The position numbers and the translations under genes were made by a program. From NCBI GenBank assembly GCA_021296255.1, contig JAGWAU010000009.1:62001-126000 (forward strand): 64,000 nucleotides of DNA, in the 5' to 3' direction. This stretch comes from Alphaproteobacteria bacterium. Its GTDB lineage: Bacteria; Pseudomonadota; Alphaproteobacteria; UBA2966. Numbering within the stretch: position 1 is the stretch's first letter; every line of letters starts with the position of its first letter. The notes under the pieces were generated by a model, which saw only the letters and a program-made list of their open reading frames with translations, searched no databases and had not been told where the DNA came from. Below, one piece after another: positions 22,863 through 30,155 of the stretch.

Positions 22863-23145
22863 TTAACTCGAAGGCCACCTCTCTTGGAGCGAGCATGCTC
22901 TCGAAGGGCGCGGAAATCCTTCGGGCCGTGAGCAATGAGGAGGATCCGAACCGACTGGAAGCTAGCCCGTTGTCGCCCGCCCGGAATGTGTGTCATGAGC
23001 GAACGCACGCCCGCTCTGGACGGCACGGCCTGGTGCCTGCTGCGCGGCAGCGAACGTGGACCTTAACCCTCATCAAGTGTCCCTTGGCGCGCGAGCGCTA
23101 TGGTCGAGCCAGCCAAAACAGGCGATTGGATAACGGCAGGGCGGG

Positions 23146-23325
23146 ATGGAGCTGCTCTATTTCACGGTCATGGCGGTCGTGCTCTACTTCGTCTCCGACT
23201 GGGTCGTTGATCGGATCGAGCATGCGGCGGGCCGTCGTTTCGAACACCGTACGCTGCTCTTCTTCGCCGTCATCCTCGCTCTCGGGACCGTTGCCTTCTG
23301 GCTGATTCGAACGCTACCGGGTTGA
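23146..23325 (+). CDS. Small two-helix membrane protein next to heme-copper cluster
   Basis: A 59-residue protein: MELLYFTVMAVVLYFVSDWV, then a basic loop DRIEHAAGRRFEHRT, then a second helix LLFFAVILALGTVAFWLIR. I recall similar short proteins beside terminal-oxidase genes in proteobacteria, but no function is established. GGGCGGG precedes the ATG. Its stop codon is inside the FNR-type box at 23322-23335, so it is probably a separate unit upstream of the regulated cluster. Confidence 0.7.
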   Translation: MELLYFTVMAVVLYFVSDWVVDRIEHAAGRRFEHRTLLFFAVILALGTVAFWLIRTLPG

Positions 23326-23335
23326 TCTAAATCAA
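23322..23335. promoter_or_regulatory. Perfect FNR/DNR-type binding site
   Basis: TTGAT-CTAA-ATCAA matches the FNR/ANR/DNR consensus TTGAT-N4-ATCAA at all ten positions. It lies 93 bp before the first gene of the heme-copper cluster. A candidate -10 element TAGGGT at 23358-23363 would put the transcription start near 23370, making the box centred at -41.5, the class-II activator position. The regulator itself is not in this window; an O2-sensing FNR or an NO-sensing DNR/NnrR protein would both fit. Confidence 0.75.
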
Positions 23336-23428
23336 TCAGGGCCTTCCGGTGGCCTGCTAGGGTACCCCGGTTGAGCGCCTCTCCCTGACTCGGGCGTGTC
23401 GCGGCGAGGCCGAGAGAGGGGACGAATC

Positions 23429-23605
23429 ATGACGGATACCGGTCAAGACACGAGAGCGTCGGATCAGCCGGCCGAGCGCGTGCCCTTCATGCAGCGCCTG
23501 CTGGACAACCCGTTCCTGCTGCTCTTCCTCGGGGTCGCCGTGCCGGCGGTCCTCTATCTCATGTGGGGGATCATGGAGGTCGCCCAGATCCCCATCGCGC
23601 CGTAG
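23429..23605 (+). CDS. Small membrane subunit of the heme-copper complex (CbaD-like)
   Basis: A 58-residue protein with one membrane helix (PFLLLFLGVAVPAVLYLMWG, residues about 28-47) and a soluble polar N-terminus. Its size and position directly before the CuA subunit recall subunit IIa of ba3-type oxidases. AGAGGGG precedes the ATG at 23429; an upstream in-frame start at 23396 is unlikely because it would lengthen the polar tail with basic residues. Confidence 0.7.
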   Translation: MTDTGQDTRASDQPAERVPFMQRLLDNPFLLLFLGVAVPAVLYLMWGIMEVAQIPIAP

Positions 23606-23620
23606 GCCGGAGGGACCGAC

Positions 23621-24166
23621 ATGGCCATACATCCGCCTGAAAAACGCATTTGGTGGAACGAGCCCCTCGAAAGATCGGAAGTCACGTGGATCACCATCGC
23701 TTTCATCTGGGGCTTGGTGATGTTCTTCACCATGGTGTTCTGGCACTTCACCGGCGAACAGAACCTCTCCAACGAGGCCTACCGTATCCACCCCGAGACC
23801 TTCGCCGAGCGCACCGAGGCGATGGCTGACCAATATACGGTCCGCGAAGAGGGCGACACCGGTATCCCGGTGGTCCATCCACCGCCGGGAAGCGACGTTT
23901 ACATGTTGGCGCGCCTTTGGGAATGGTGGCCGATCCTCGAACTGGAGGAGGGTAAGGATTATCGCCTGCACCTCTCCTCGATGGATTGGCAGCACGGTTT
24001 CTCGCTGCAGCCCGAAAACATCAATATCCAGGTCCATCCGGGCTACGAGCTCGTGTTGACGCTCACGCCCGAAGGCGTCGGAGAGTACTGGGTCGTTTGC
24101 AACGAATTCTGTGGGATCGGCCACCATCAGATGGTGGGAAAGATCTACGTGGTGGAAGCGAAATAG
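23621..24166 (+). CDS. Heme-copper reductase subunit II with CuA site
   Basis: A 181-residue subunit: one N-terminal helix (TWITIAFIWGLVMFFTMVF, about 22-40) and a periplasmic cupredoxin domain. All CuA ligands are visible: His125 (DWQH), Cys160, Glu162, Cys164, His168 and Met171 in CNEFCGIGHHQM. It should accept electrons from a c-type cytochrome or cupredoxin and pass them to subunit I. Such a CuA subunit occurs in ba3 oxidases and also in sNOR-type NO reductases. Ends 10 bp before subunit I. Confidence 0.88.
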   Translation: MAIHPPEKRIWWNEPLERSEVTWITIAFIWGLVMFFTMVFWHFTGEQNLSNEAYRIHPETFAERTEAMADQYTVREEGDTGIPVVHPPPGSDVYMLARLWEWWPILELEEGKDYRLHLSSMDWQHGFSLQPENINIQVHPGYELVLTLTPEGVGEYWVVCNEFCGIGHHQMVGKIYVVEAK

Positions 24167-24176
24167 GGGGCGTGTC

Positions 24177-25901
24177 ATGGCGAGCATCGCTGATACCGGT
24201 ACCCTGCCGAGGGCTGCCGAGTTCCGAACGTGTCCCGACACCGGCCTCAAGATCGACCTCGCGGCCGAGAAGCTGATCCGCTGGAACGCGGTCGTTGCCG
24301 TGGTGTTCCTCGCCATCGGCGGCTTCTTCGGCCTGCTGGTGGCGCTGACCCGCTGGCCAGCGGTCCATCTGTTGCCGGCGGAGTGGTTCTACCTGGCGCT
24401 GACGGCGCACGGCGCCGACGTGCTGCTGTTCTGGGTCATCTTTTTCGAGATCGCCATCCTCTACTTCGCTTCGGCGGTTCTGCTCAACAGTCGCCTCGCG
24501 GCCCCGCGGATCGCCTGGCTCGGGTTCTGGCTCATGCTGGCCGGCGCCCTTCTCGCCAACGTGGCGGTGCTACAAGGCGAGTCGAGCGTCATGTTCACGT
24601 CCTATGTGCCCATGCAGGCGGCACCCCACTTCTATCTCGGCCTGATCCTCTTCGCCGTCGGGGCTTTGGTTGCCGTCGCCGTGTTCTTCGGCACGCTGGT
24701 CATCGCGAAGGATGAGGGCACCTACGAGGGATCGGTGCCATTGGTCACATTCGGTGCCATCGCCGCGGCGGTTATCGCGGTCTTCACCATCACCTCGGGT
24801 GCCATCATTCTCATTCCCACCTTCTTCTGGTCGGTCGGCATCATCAGTCACATCGATCCGGTGATGTACAAGGTCGTGTGGTGGGGCATGGGCCACTCCT
24901 CGCAGCAGATCAACGTCTCGGCCCACGTCGCGGTGTGGTATGCCATCGCCGCCATGGTGCTGGGCGCCAAGCCGCTATCGGAGAAGGTGAGCCGTTTCGC
25001 CTTCCTCATGTACATCCTGTTCCTGCAGATCGCTGCGGCACACCACCTTCTGGTGGAACCGGGTATCAGTTCGGAATGGAAGATCTTCAATACGAGCTAC
25101 GCGCTCTACCTTGCCGTGCTCGGCAGCCTCATCCACGGCCTCAGCGTCCCCGGTGCCATCGAAGCGGCCCAGCGCCGCCGTGGCTTCACCAAGGGCGTGT
25201 TCGAATGGTTGCGCAAGGCGCCGTGGGGTAATCCGGCCTTCTCTGGGATGTTTCTGTCGCTCGTCATGTTCGGTTTCCTCGGCGGCATCTCCGGCGTGGT
25301 GCTCGGCTCGGAGCAGATCAACCTGATCCTGCACAACACCATGTACGTGCCTGGCCATTTCCACGGCACCGTCGTTGCCGGGACGACGCTCGCCTTCATG
25401 GCCATCACCTATCTCGTGGTGCCGCTGATTTTCCGCCGCGAGATCATGTTCAAGAAAGTTGCCCAGTGGCAGCCGTACGTCTTCGGTCTCGGCGTCGCAG
25501 GCATATCGCTGTTCATGATGGGAGCGGGCACGCTCGGCGTCAGTCGGCGCCACTGGGACATCACCTTCTCCGATGCCCCCGTGGCCTTCGACTATCCCGG
25601 CACGGCTTTCTTGATGATGGGGCTGAACGGCGTGTTCGGCGTCCTCGCGGCTTTGGGTGGCCTGATGTATATCGTGGTTGTGGTCTGGTCCGTCTTCTTC
25701 GGAGAACGACGAACCGAGGAGAAAGCGCGGTCCGAGCCGTTGTTGCCCCAGGACGGCGCGGCGGCGGTTGCGACCTACGGCAGCGAGGGCACCCTCAAGC
25801 TGCCGGGCACGATCACGCTCGTCGCGGTCTTCTTCGTGGCTTTTGTCCTCTACTACTTCGTCAACTGGAAGTTCCTGTCGGAAGTCTGGCCCTTGAGTTG
25901 A
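24177..25901 (+). CDS. Heme-copper reductase subunit I lacking the active-site Tyr (candidate sNOR-like NO reductase)
   Basis: A 574-residue, 12-or-more-helix catalytic subunit. Metal ligands are intact: His78 (LTAHGAD) and His396 for low-spin heme, His394 for the high-spin heme (PGHFHG), and CuB ligands His240, His289 and His290 (AAAHHLL). However, oxygen reductases have HPxVY after the first CuB histidine, where Tyr is covalently cross-linked; here the segment is HSSQQ, with Gln244 at the Tyr position. Loss of that Tyr is characteristic of nitric oxide reductases. Together with a CuA subunit and SenC this recalls the norSY-senC genes of ammonia oxidisers. A divergent ba3 oxidase remains possible. 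ATG 24177 chosen; the upstream frame overlaps subunit II. Confidence 0.8.
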   Translation: MASIADTGTLPRAAEFRTCPDTGLKIDLAAEKLIRWNAVVAVVFLAIGGFFGLLVALTRWPAVHLLPAEWFYLALTAHGADVLLFWVIFFEIAILYFASAVLLNSRLAAPRIAWLGFWLMLAGALLANVAVLQGESSVMFTSYVPMQAAPHFYLGLILFAVGALVAVAVFFGTLVIAKDEGTYEGSVPLVTFGAIAAAVIAVFTITSGAIILIPTFFWSVGIISHIDPVMYKVVWWGMGHSSQQINVSAHVAVWYAIAAMVLGAKPLSEKVSRFAFLMYILFLQIAAAHHLLVEPGISSEWKIFNTSYALYLAVLGSLIHGLSVPGAIEAAQRRRGFTKGVFEWLRKAPWGNPAFSGMFLSLVMFGFLGGISGVVLGSEQINLILHNTMYVPGHFHGTVVAGTTLAFMAITYLVVPLIFRREIMFKKVAQWQPYVFGLGVAGISLFMMGAGTLGVSRRHWDITFSDAPVAFDYPGTAFLMMGLNGVFGVLAALGGLMYIVVVVWSVFFGERRTEEKARSEPLLPQDGAAAVATYGSEGTLKLPGTITLVAVFFVAFVLYYFVNWKFLSEVWPLS

Positions 25902-25916: not shown

Positions 25917-26783
25917 ATGGTAGCGGTTGTCAGGGAGCTTTACGGTGTCTTCAAGCTGCGTATCGGATTCGCGATCGCGCTGAGCGCGGCGGCAGGTCTC
26001 GCGGCGACGCCTGGTCCATCCCTCCCGTTCTGGAACGCTACGGCTCTCGTCTTGGCCGTATTGCTTGCAGCCGCGAGCGCCGGCGCCTTCAACCAATTCG
26101 CTGAGCGCGATCTCGACGCGCGCATGGTCCGCACCCGCGAACGGCCCTTCGTCTCGGGCCGGTTTACCGCCGGGCCTTTCTGGCTTGCCATCATCGGTGG
26201 ACTGCTTGTGTTTTCGGTGATGCTGGCCGCCTGGGCCACCAACGTAGTGGCCGCCACGCACGTGTTCCTCGGCGCCTTCGTGTACGGCGTCGTCTACACT
26301 GTGTGGCTCAAGCGCCGCACCTGGCTCAACATCGTCGTCGGAGGTCTGTCGGGAAGTTTCGCGGTGCTGGCCGGTGCAGCGGCCGTCGATGCGAGTCTCT
26401 CCGCCGTGCCGGTCTGCCTCGCAATCGTTCTGTTCCTCTGGACGCCTCCGCATTTCTGGAGCTTGGCGATGGCACTGCGCGAGGACTATGCCCGGGCCGA
26501 GGTGCCCATGCTGCCGATCGTTGTCGGCGATGTACGGGCGGCCAAGGTTATTCTTGCCCATACGGTGGTGCTCGTCGCCTTGTCGTTGATGCCTTTCATC
26601 TACGGGCTTGGCCTCGTCTATCTCGCGTTGGCGGTGATTGGCGGCTGGGTTTTCGTCGAGAAGAGCATCGCCCTCGTACGCACACCCGGACCTGCGGCGG
26701 CGCGCGCGAACTTCAAGGCCTCGCTGCTGCAGCTCTCGTTGATTCTGGTCGGCGCCATGGCGGACGCATGGTTGCCCTTGTAA
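25917..26783 (+). CDS. ctaB: Protoheme IX farnesyltransferase (heme O synthase)
   Basis: A 288-residue UbiA-family prenyltransferase that farnesylates heme b to heme O for heme-copper enzymes. The prenyl-diphosphate/Mg2+ motif is NQFAERDLDARMVRTRERP (residues about 61-79) and the second is WTPPHFWSLAMALREDYA. About eight membrane helices. It lies 15 bp after subunit I and overlaps the SCO gene, so it is part of the same transcript. No heme A synthase gene is present here. Confidence 0.92.
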   Translation: MVAVVRELYGVFKLRIGFAIALSAAAGLAATPGPSLPFWNATALVLAVLLAAASAGAFNQFAERDLDARMVRTRERPFVSGRFTAGPFWLAIIGGLLVFSVMLAAWATNVVAATHVFLGAFVYGVVYTVWLKRRTWLNIVVGGLSGSFAVLAGAAAVDASLSAVPVCLAIVLFLWTPPHFWSLAMALREDYARAEVPMLPIVVGDVRAAKVILAHTVVLVALSLMPFIYGLGLVYLALAVIGGWVFVEKSIALVRTPGPAAARANFKASLLQLSLILVGAMADAWLPL

Positions 26784-27595
26784 GTCGTTGCGCTTCGCGG
26801 GTCTTGACTGCGTTGTGCCTGTTCGCAGCCGTCCCGGGGCTGGCGGCACCGCCAGCTCCCACCGCCTTCGATCCTGATCGGGCGCTTGCGGATAGCCAAG
26901 CGGCTCTGGGACGCACGCTCTCGGGTTACGAATTTCGTGACGCTTCGTTCCGACCGCTGACGCTTTCGGAGTTTCGCGGCCGACCGTTGCTGATCAACCT
27001 GGTCTATACGAGTTGTGCTTACGACTGTCCGCTTACCATCGAGACGTTGGCCGAAGCCATCGATATCGCGCGCGAAGCAGTGGGCCGGGAAAGTTTCCAA
27101 GTGCTGACCGTCGGATTCGACACGCGCATGGATACGCCGGAACGGATGCGCGAATTTGCCGCCAATCATGGCATTCGCGACGACGGCTGGCGTTTCGCCA
27201 GTGCCGAGCACGAGACCATTGCACGACTCTCGAAGGATTTGGGCTTCTTGTTCTTCCCTTCGGCAAAAGGCTTCGACCACATCGCCCAGACTACGCTCGT
27301 CGACGCTGACGGCGTCATCTACCGCCAAGTCTACGGCGCTGCGTTCGATCCGCCCTTTCTGGTGGAGCCGCTGAAGGATCTGGTTTTCGGGCGCGAGAGC
27401 GTGCCGACGTCGCTTGAGGGGCTGATCAACCGCATCCGCTTCTTTTGCACCATCTACGACCCGTCGAGCGGCCGCTACCGGTTGGACTACTCCCCCTTCA
27501 TTGCCATCGCTGTCGGTATCGCCTCCCTCGGCGGGTTGGGCTTCGTCGTCGTGCGCGGTTGGCTCCGTCAGCGTCGCCCTCGCGCGCGGTCCTGA
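26768..27595 (+). CDS. SCO1/SenC-family copper chaperone
   Basis: A 275-residue thioredoxin-fold protein involved in building CuA. N-terminal signal sequence (about residues 10-26), copper-binding CAYDC (after VYTS) and the conserved His in KGFDHIAQTTLVD; a C-terminal membrane helix (about 245-264) makes it doubly anchored. The ATG at 26768 overlaps the end of ctaB by 16 bp in another frame. The partner subunit II keeps all CuA ligands, so the chaperone has a target. In ammonia oxidisers senC follows norSY. Confidence 0.9.
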   Translation: MVALVSRCASRVLTALCLFAAVPGLAAPPAPTAFDPDRALADSQAALGRTLSGYEFRDASFRPLTLSEFRGRPLLINLVYTSCAYDCPLTIETLAEAIDIAREAVGRESFQVLTVGFDTRMDTPERMREFAANHGIRDDGWRFASAEHETIARLSKDLGFLFFPSAKGFDHIAQTTLVDADGVIYRQVYGAAFDPPFLVEPLKDLVFGRESVPTSLEGLINRIRFFCTIYDPSSGRYRLDYSPFIAIAVGIASLGGLGFVVVRGWLRQRRPRARS

Positions 27596-27613: not shown

Positions 27614-29203
27614 GTGACGGCGCTGCAGCGTATCTTGCGGCCGGCCCTCTGGCGCCTCGACGATCTGTTGTCGCGTATTTTTGGACCTGCCTGGAACCCC
27701 CTCTACAACCTCGGAGCGCTGGGTTTTTTCTTTTACTGGATCGTCGCGATCAGCGGCATATACATCTACATCTTCTTCGATACCGGCGTTACCGAGGCTT
27801 ACGACTCCGTCGCCTACATGACGGAGGACCAGTGGTACCTTGCCGGCGTGATGCGGAGCCTGCACCGCTACGCCTCGGACGCCCTGGTCGTCGTCATGGT
27901 GCTGCATCTGATCCGCGAGTTCGCCTATGACCGCTACCGAGGCGCGCGTTGGTTCAGCTGGCTTACCGCCGTCCCGATAATTTTGTTTGTCCTCGCGTCC
28001 GGCATCACGGGCTACTGGCTGGTCTGGGACCAGCTTGCGCAGTACGTCGCCATTGCCACCATGGAATGGCTCGACTGGCTGCCCATCTTCGGTGAGCCCA
28101 TCGCCCGTAACTTTCTGGCGCCCGACGCGCTCGATGACCGTTTCTTCACTTTGCTCGTGTTCCTGCACATCGCCGTGCCGTTGCTGTTGCTGCTGGCATT
28201 GTGGATCCACCTGCAACGGGTGAGTCGGCCACGCGTCAACCCGCCGCGCGGTCTGGCCGCGGGTAGCTTCGCGGCGCTTCTCGCGCTCTCATTCGCCATG
28301 CCGGCGACCAGTCATGCACCCGCCGATCTGGCGAAGGTCCCCACAGTCCTCGATCTCGACTGGTTCTATCTCGGATTCCATCCGTTGATGGACGTGTGGT
28401 CCCGCGGCACGGTGTGGGCCACGGCCGCTGTGCTGATGCTGACGATTGCCGTCATGCCCTGGTTGCCTCCCTTTCGCCGCCCTGAGGTGGCGCGGGTTGA
28501 TCTCGACAACTGCAACGGGTGTGCCCGCTGCGCCGAGGACTGCCCCTTCAACGCGATCTCGATGGAGCGCCGCAGTGACGGCAAACCGTTCGACCGGGAA
28601 GCGGTCGTCAATAGCTCGCTGTGCGTGAGCTGTGGGATTTGCGCGGGGGCCTGCCCGACGGCGACCCCCTTCCGCCGCACCGGCGCCCTGGTCCCGGGGA
28701 TCGAACTGCCCCACGCCACCCTGGTGAGCTTGCGGGACGCACTCGATCGAAAGGCGGATACCGGTAGCCAACAGGTCTACCTCATCGCCTGCGAGCATGG
28801 GGCTAGGCGGGAGACGATCGGCCACCCGGACCTCGCCGTCGCCACGGTACCTTGCATCGGCGCCCTGCCGCCGTCGTTCATCGACTACCTGCTGAGCCGC
28901 TGTGGCGCGGCAGGCGTCTACTTGGCCGGATGCCCGCAGGGCAATTGCCACTTCCGCCTCGGCAACGCATGGACCGAGGCGCGCCTCGAGGGACGGCGCG
29001 ACCCGATCCTGCGCAAACGGGTTCCACGCGAACGGGTGTGCTGGGGCTGGTTCGCGCCTCACCAGTCGTCGGGGCTGCGGCGGTCCGTCGAGGCGTTCCT
29101 CCGCGATGTCCGCGGTTTGCCTCCTCAGGAGGCTCCGTCCGTCCGACAGCTCAGCACCCGCTTCGACCGGTCGCGGGAAGAGGGAGGCGTTGGCGGTCCA
29201 TGA
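27614..29203 (+). CDS. Cytochrome b6-like / 2[4Fe-4S] ferredoxin / MvhD-like fusion protein
   Basis: A 529-residue three-part redox protein. Residues 1-280 are a cytochrome b/b6 membrane domain with two bis-His pairs each 14 apart (His84/His98 and His185/His199). Residues 296-352 hold two [4Fe-4S] motifs: Cys300, 303, 306, 310 and Cys337, 340, 343, 347. Residues 386-510 resemble the delta subunit of methyl-viologen hydrogenase/heterodisulfide systems, with Cys393, 414, 430, 440 and 445 (GCPQGNCHF). It could link the quinone pool to low-potential carriers or feed the heme-copper enzyme. GTG start at 27614; it overlaps the next gene by ATGA. Confidence 0.85.
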   Translation: MTALQRILRPALWRLDDLLSRIFGPAWNPLYNLGALGFFFYWIVAISGIYIYIFFDTGVTEAYDSVAYMTEDQWYLAGVMRSLHRYASDALVVVMVLHLIREFAYDRYRGARWFSWLTAVPIILFVLASGITGYWLVWDQLAQYVAIATMEWLDWLPIFGEPIARNFLAPDALDDRFFTLLVFLHIAVPLLLLLALWIHLQRVSRPRVNPPRGLAAGSFAALLALSFAMPATSHAPADLAKVPTVLDLDWFYLGFHPLMDVWSRGTVWATAAVLMLTIAVMPWLPPFRRPEVARVDLDNCNGCARCAEDCPFNAISMERRSDGKPFDREAVVNSSLCVSCGICAGACPTATPFRRTGALVPGIELPHATLVSLRDALDRKADTGSQQVYLIACEHGARRETIGHPDLAVATVPCIGALPPSFIDYLLSRCGAAGVYLAGCPQGNCHFRLGNAWTEARLEGRRDPILRKRVPRERVCWGWFAPHQSSGLRRSVEAFLRDVRGLPPQEAPSVRQLSTRFDRSREEGGVGGP

Positions 29204-29700
29204 CCAGTGCTCTCCGATATGTGGGCCAGGCCGCCGTGCTCGTCGCCTTTGCCGGGGTGGTCGGGTTCTTTTCCGCCGCTCCGTCTTTTCGTCATTTTCC
29301 CGAGGGGCAGGCCTTACTCAAGGTGAGCTTCGCGCATGGCGGCGCCCGTAGGGCGGAATGCCGGAAACGGACGCGGCGGGAGCTTGCGGAGATGGCGGCG
29401 AACATGCGGAAGGAGATGGATTGTCCTCGTGGACGAGTAGACCTAAGGCTCGAGGTCGACCTCGATGGAGCACCGCTCTACCAGGCGACGCTGCCGCCGA
29501 CGGGGCTTGCGGGGGACGGCCCGTCGCGCGTCTACGAACGGTTTGTGCTCCCCGCGGGTCGCCACGTTCTCCATCTTCGCTTGCGCGATTCCCGTCGGAA
29601 TCAGGGGTTCGATCACGTCACGCAGAAGGTTGTGGAGCTCGCTGCCGGACAAAGTGTTGCCGTCGATTTCCGCGTCGGCGAGGGGTTCATCGTCCGATGA
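29200..29700 (+). CDS. Membrane-anchored protein of unknown function in heme-copper cluster
   Basis: A 166-residue protein starting in the ATGA overlap with the preceding gene. One N-terminal helix (YVGQAAVLVAFAGVVGFFSA) followed by a mainly beta periplasmic domain with RYxLDDG-like pattern (RVYERFVLPAGRHVLHLRLR). Pairs ECRKR and MDCPRG give two cysteines that might bind metal or form a disulfide. Strict coupling to the cytochrome b fusion suggests a partner in the same complex; no known family recognised. Confidence 0.7.
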   Translation: MTSALRYVGQAAVLVAFAGVVGFFSAAPSFRHFPEGQALLKVSFAHGGARRAECRKRTRRELAEMAANMRKEMDCPRGRVDLRLEVDLDGAPLYQATLPPTGLAGDGPSRVYERFVLPAGRHVLHLRLRDSRRNQGFDHVTQKVVELAAGQSVAVDFRVGEGFIVR

Positions 29701-29737: not shown

Positions 29738-30145
29738 ATGGCGCTGATCCCGTGGCGAGAGGCGTTCGAGATCGGGATCGAGCCGGTCGATCACGAGCAC
29801 CGCGAGTTGATAGACCTTATCAACCAACTCCATGACCGGCTCGATCGTAGCGCCGAGCCGGAGATCGTCGCTGGTTTTCTCGGTGAGATCTATGCGCGCA
29901 TCTCCGCGCATTTCGCCCTCGAGGAACGAGTCATGCGCGACCTCGAGTACGACGACTACGCGGATCACAAGGATGACCATGAAGCCCTGCTGGACGATAT
30001 CAGGGACATCATGGATGTCTTCGACGAGGGCGGCTATGTGGACTTACAGGAGGATTTGGGAGACCAACTCGAAACGTGGTTCGGTGGACATTTCCGCACG
30101 AAAGACGCCCGCCTTCACACCTTCCTCGAAGACAGGGGCGCTTGA
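29738..30145 (+). CDS. Bacteriohemerythrin
   Basis: A 135-residue four-helix-bundle protein with a carboxylate-bridged di-iron centre that binds O2 or NO. Ligands: His21 (VDHEHREL), His58 and Glu62 (HFALEE), His77 and His81 (HKDDH), His118 and Asp123 (HFRTKD). GGGAGG lies 8 bp upstream of the ATG. Thirty-seven bp after the cluster's membrane protein, so it is likely cotranscribed; it may deliver or scavenge O2 or NO for the reductase. Confidence 0.92.
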   Translation: MALIPWREAFEIGIEPVDHEHRELIDLINQLHDRLDRSAEPEIVAGFLGEIYARISAHFALEERVMRDLEYDDYADHKDDHEALLDDIRDIMDVFDEGGYVDLQEDLGDQLETWFGGHFRTKDARLHTFLEDRGA

Positions 30146-30155
30146 TCGAAATCAA
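30142..30155. promoter_or_regulatory. Second perfect FNR/DNR-type binding site
   Basis: TTGAT-CGAA-ATCAA matches the same consensus at all ten positions and overlaps the hemerythrin stop codon. It lies 182 bp before the BKACE gene. I see no convincing -10 at the class-II spacing, so its target is unclear: it may act at a distance on the next gene or be a roadblock at the end of the cluster. Confidence 0.55.

Follow-up and report, generated by a model that had tools for sequence, protein, structure and literature searches.

At the class-II promoters of Escherichia coli FNR, the box of the regulator is centred at -41.5 and the -35 element is poor or absent. The regulator DNR is reported to bind TTGATnnnnATCAA and to activate NO-reductase genes (PMC1274295). 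The eNORs are heme-copper nitric oxide reductases with a cupredoxin subunit II, for which a Gln at the Tyr position is diagnostic, and their genes are often annotated in error as those of cytochrome c oxidases (PMC8756737). In the literature searched, no account of eNOR regulation was found. Here we describe a 64-kb stretch of DNA (hereafter, the window) in which a putative eNOR operon is preceded by an FNR/DNR-type palindrome; judged from sequence, this palindrome very probably acts as a genuine binding site and turns on the gene cluster of the NO-reducing enzyme (Table 1).

Table 1. Features of the eNOR cluster and of the two palindromes that border it, in window coordinates
Feature	Position	Strand	Evidence
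tm1, 59-aa membrane ORF	23146..23325	+	homologues at some related loci; stop codon overlaps box
FNR/DNR-type palindrome TTGAT-CTAA-ATCAA, putative class-II activator site	23322..23335	+	10/10 match; TTGAY-N4-RTCAA similarly placed at many related loci
-10-like hexamer TAGGGT, predicted +1 near 23370	23358..23363	+	22 nt after box; TAnnnT at 21-23 nt in 12/23 box loci
tm2, 58-aa membrane ORF, predicted to open the operon under control of the box	23429..23605	+	homologues in 39/42 related loci
eNOR subunit II, CuA motif CNEFCGIGHHQM	23621..24166	+	weak CoxB and NosZ cupredoxin matches; conserved order
eNOR subunit I, B-family-like heme-copper protein, Gln at Tyr237 position	24177..25901 (start approximate)	+	PF00115; ba3 alignment; Gln and six His kept throughout 43 loci
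heme O synthase CtaB	25917..26783	+	TIGR01473 above cut-off
SCO1/SenC-like copper chaperone	26789..27595	+	PF02630
fusion of cytochrome b, two 4Fe-4S and FlpD(MvhD) domains, predicted to serve for electron entry	27614..29203	+	Pfam; conserved order
166-aa conserved protein, family not assigned	29200..29700	+	conserved order in eNOR clusters
bacteriohemerythrin, at the end of the shared module	29738..30145	+	NF033749 above cut-off
second perfect palindrome TTGATCGAAATCAA, role uncertain	30142..30155	+	perfect match; missing from nearest relatives

Among solved structures, subunit I of the cluster is nearest by sequence to the ba3 oxidases, whose Tyr237 is replaced here by Gln. In 43 of the 43 loci compared, Gln takes the place of the cross-linked active-site Tyr, on which ground an oxidase reading of the cluster was dropped, and the six metal-ligand His of subunit I are likewise invariant in the 43 loci. 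The cupredoxin (CuA) subunit II adjoins subunit I, and it is this subunit, together with the Gln signature, that points to membership of the eNOR-type NO reductases. The gene order of the module is largely kept across the related loci in genome contigs, including the gene for the 166-aa protein, which has no Pfam or NCBIfam match. A copper nitrite reductase, as supplier of NO, gave no match above cut-off in a search for the Cu type.

The palindrome at the head of the cluster, TTGATCTAAATCAA, agrees with the TTGAT-N4-ATCAA consensus at all 10 fixed positions, and lies where an earlier note on this DNA had placed it. In the window, which has a G+C content of 64.8%, TTGATCTAAATCAA and TTGATCGAAATCAA are the only perfect palindromes and both border the cluster, as had been claimed; the expectation for independent bases, which the note had put at about 0.006 in 64 kb at about 65% G+C, was recomputed as 0.0062 per 64 kb. 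The whole 4.25-Mb genome contains five perfect sites, whereas the reversed pattern, taken as control, has none. Of the three sites outside the window, two lie within coding sequence, and the eNOR cluster is flanked by two of the three genomic sites that are not clearly coding. The hexamer TAGGGT, identical to TATAAT at only three positions, follows the first box at a spacing that fits the class-II placement proposed in the note; specifically, with the box centre at 23328.5 set at -41.5, the spacing predicts a +1 at 23370. A simple promoter scan of positions 23050-23700 returned no sigma-70 promoter with a -35, an absence that is expected of an activator-dependent promoter. The open reading frame whose stop codon the box overlaps, tm1, is a small upstream membrane ORF of the same module.

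The explanation that we favour, and that we consider probable as a whole, is that the palindrome serves as class-II activator site for an eNOR operon comprising the genes for tm2, subunit II, subunit I, CtaB, SCO, the cytochrome b/Fe-S protein, the 166-aa protein and hemerythrin. In particular, a Crp/Fnr-family dimer at -41.5 would substitute for the missing -35 and, once bound, would recruit RNA polymerase to TAGGGT, and the presumed NO reductase would be made together with its assembly and electron-entry proteins at low oxygen and/or with NO.

The related loci were aligned by tm2, the small first gene, with upstream zones of 230 bp. Upstream sequence was sufficient in 40 loci, counting the window: 7 carry a perfect box, 11 a box with at most one mismatch and 21 a box with two or fewer. 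The corresponding means after shuffling are 0.01, 0.25 and 3.3, as obtained with single-base shuffles and for loci that are related and thus not independent; no box can be recognised in about half of the related loci. The pattern TTGAY-N4-RTCAA has 20 occurrences in the 9.1 kb of zones upstream of tm2 and 22 over the 571 kb that remain, which corresponds to a 57-fold enrichment, and its occurrences upstream of tm2 span alpha-, beta- and gammaproteobacteria as well as Magnetococcales. The class-II geometry is conserved too, as TAnnnT -10 hexamers cluster at a fixed distance from the box: they start 21, 22 or 23 nt past it in 12 of the 23 box loci, and at any other offset in two at most. The reading of the first box as a class-II FNR/DNR-type activator site is, therefore, well supported by conservation. 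The same data bear on the view that the palindrome arose by chance and has no regulatory role: the motif is short, perfect sites are also present in coding sequence elsewhere in the genome and the closest relatives manage without the box, but position, -10 spacing and sequence are conserved across distant relatives, and a chance origin appears extremely improbable.

Further sequence elements were observed among these loci. An extra FNR-type box is located inside the cluster, after the SCO gene, in six of them (L024, L025, L028, L030, L033 and L044), directly before the cytochrome b/Fe-S gene in five of the six, and these boxes suggest a separate control of the cytochrome b/Fe-S electron-entry protein. 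In the betaproteobacterial eNOR loci L031, L032, L034, L035 and L037, another conserved upstream sequence, TTAA(A/C)CCACATGAAGGAATT, is positioned about 78 nt before tm2.

The second perfect palindrome of the window overlaps the stop codon of the hemerythrin gene and sits at the extreme edge of the shared module. No TAnnnT is found 21-23 nt after it, that is, it is without a -10 at class-II spacing, and no box was found at the hemerythrin end in the nearest relatives. A reading of this box as a promoter element is not supported, and on both grounds its assignment as class-II promoter of the downstream BKACE gene was rejected.

All ten box-bearing genomes examined contain Crp/Fnr regulators above the Pfam cut-off, and each has at least one E-x-x-S-R helix among the regulators fetched, which are a subset of those present; one of the ten has a single Crp/Fnr regulator, and an E-x-x-S-R helix. 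Genomes of the family to which the window belongs have several Crp/Fnr regulators each. In two of these (G025 and G027), which carry an eNOR at 66-67% identity with boxes upstream, two DNR-type regulators with KPESLSR helices are encoded directly downstream of the eNOR cluster, and G027 also possesses an NnrS-like gene, so named from its sequence. Responsiveness to oxygen or NO would fit the eNOR-type enzyme, the linked DNR-type regulators and the NnrS-like gene of these same-family genomes. The activator responsive to one of the two signals that the earlier note held likely would agree with these observations, but no regulator with a matching helix was found in the genome under study.

In this genome, 97% complete and in 136 contigs, there is one full Crp/Fnr regulator, on contig C32, and a search for a regulator with a matching recognition helix, as the note had proposed, returned this protein only. 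The four FNR cysteines are kept (three in C-x2-C-x7-C plus one at the C122 column), but the recognition helix reads SVHVNR where FNR has VETISR (V208-R213), with the Glu lost; the E. coli FNR sequence used in this alignment matches the aligned FNR chain in the helix region. In other words, the contig C32 helix does not have the ExxSR pattern, and no regulator that does was found in the 97% of the genome that is covered. The nearest same-class homologues are likewise without the Glu (SVHVNR, SVHVSR, PVHVSR and PVHISR). As the identity of residue 181 (CRP numbering) and the bases recognised are correlated within the family (PMC1274295) and the Glu is lost, the contig C32 protein is not predicted to prefer TTGAT. 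No box within two mismatches is found near its own gene. A wider regulon is not evident in the genome, as the other perfect or near-perfect sites inspected are mostly coding, and a genome-wide regulon was rejected on account of the many such sites inside coding sequence.

The box would be read by the contig C32 protein all the same, or by a regulator encoded in the missing ~3% of the genome, or else it is an orphan. Although uncertain, and in spite of an atypical helix, the one FNR-like protein with four cysteines, encoded on contig C32, is the best candidate. A tentative and rather doubtful extension of this is that the four-cysteine protein with SVHVNR took over the canonical TTGAT-N4-ATCAA box and controls little besides the eNOR operon; if true, this takeover would depart from the established correspondence of helix residues to box sequence. 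That the box is actually read by an FNR/DNR-type regulator whose gene the assembly lacks would be in line with the several Crp/Fnr regulators of the same-family genomes, two of which, with ExxSR helices, are located beside the eNOR cluster; it is nonetheless quite improbable, as no regulator follows the cluster in this window and the chance of one given gene being missing is a few per cent.

The orphan alternative is best considered with the six nearest clusters, in which subunit I is about 95% identical to that of the window. The box upstream of tm2 is absent in all six, which show instead a sigma-70-like promoter (TTGAAT-17-TATCCT-like, by eye from the alignment), and no Crp/Fnr regulator above cut-off was found in their genomes. 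Incompleteness may account for the gap in any one of these genomes, and is unlikely to do so in all six together. Perfect sites number 0-3 per genome in the six, versus 9-14 in four genomes with eNOR and box. According to the orphan alternative, the box was functional in an ancestor, the cognate DNR/FNR was lost, and the palindrome is a relic that decays as it seemingly did in these six relatives. The window cluster and the six diverge by only ~27-42% at four-fold degenerate sites, so that survival of the box alone does not prove selective maintenance; at this divergence, the estimated probability that ten intact bases survive without selection is roughly 0.1-0.2. No ExxSR regulator was found in the 97% complete genome, and the nearest relatives lack both box and regulator. 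The box is nevertheless perfect, and there is neither a replacement -35 nor a takeover by a sigma-70-like promoter of the relatives' type, and we regard an orphan box as unlikely.

The block common to the window and the six nearest clusters extends from ~23105-23143 to 30139-30149 at ~84% identity, with flanks that have no match. The six genomes that share it bear the titles Alphaproteobacteria or Rhodospirillales, and no eNOR was found in two genomes of the same genus, only weak oxidase-level matches. Horizontal movement of the 7-kb eNOR module thus appears likely. In trees built by FastTree, the protein tree places the window cluster outside the six nearest, in agreement with a single loss of the box in the latter; the nucleotide tree is compatible with a window cluster either sister to the six or nested among them.

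With the class-II activator site as the preferred reading, the conserved FNR/DNR-type promoter would represent independent evidence that eNORs function in metabolism at low oxygen or of nitric oxide, and would supply a simple DNA marker with which to locate eNOR operons. In addition, the joint absence of box and regulator in the close relatives and the odd helix found here would offer a clean natural case of a regulatory link that was lost or rewired.

The predicted promoter of the eNOR operon is a further case of an already known kind of promoter. With the DNR-controlled denitrification promoters (of Pseudomonas and of betaproteobacterial nir, nor and nos genes; PMC1274295) it shares the palindrome TTGATnnnnATCAA upstream of an NO reductase operon and, in same-family genomes, DNR-type regulators linked to the eNOR cluster; it differs in that the target is of the eNOR type, not cNOR, and in that this genome is without a regulator with a DNR-type helix. 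The class-II promoters of E. coli FNR have in common with it the -41.5 centre (predicted here), the poor or absent -35 and, as regards the candidate regulator, the four cluster cysteines, whereas the helix is SVHVNR instead of VETISR and the target is an NO reductase cluster. As in the described eNOR family (PMC8756737), a B-family-like subunit I with Gln for Tyr is preceded immediately upstream by a cupredoxin subunit II; to this picture, the present comparison adds an accessory module (CtaB, SCO, cytochrome b/Fe-S protein and hemerythrin) and an FNR-type promoter.
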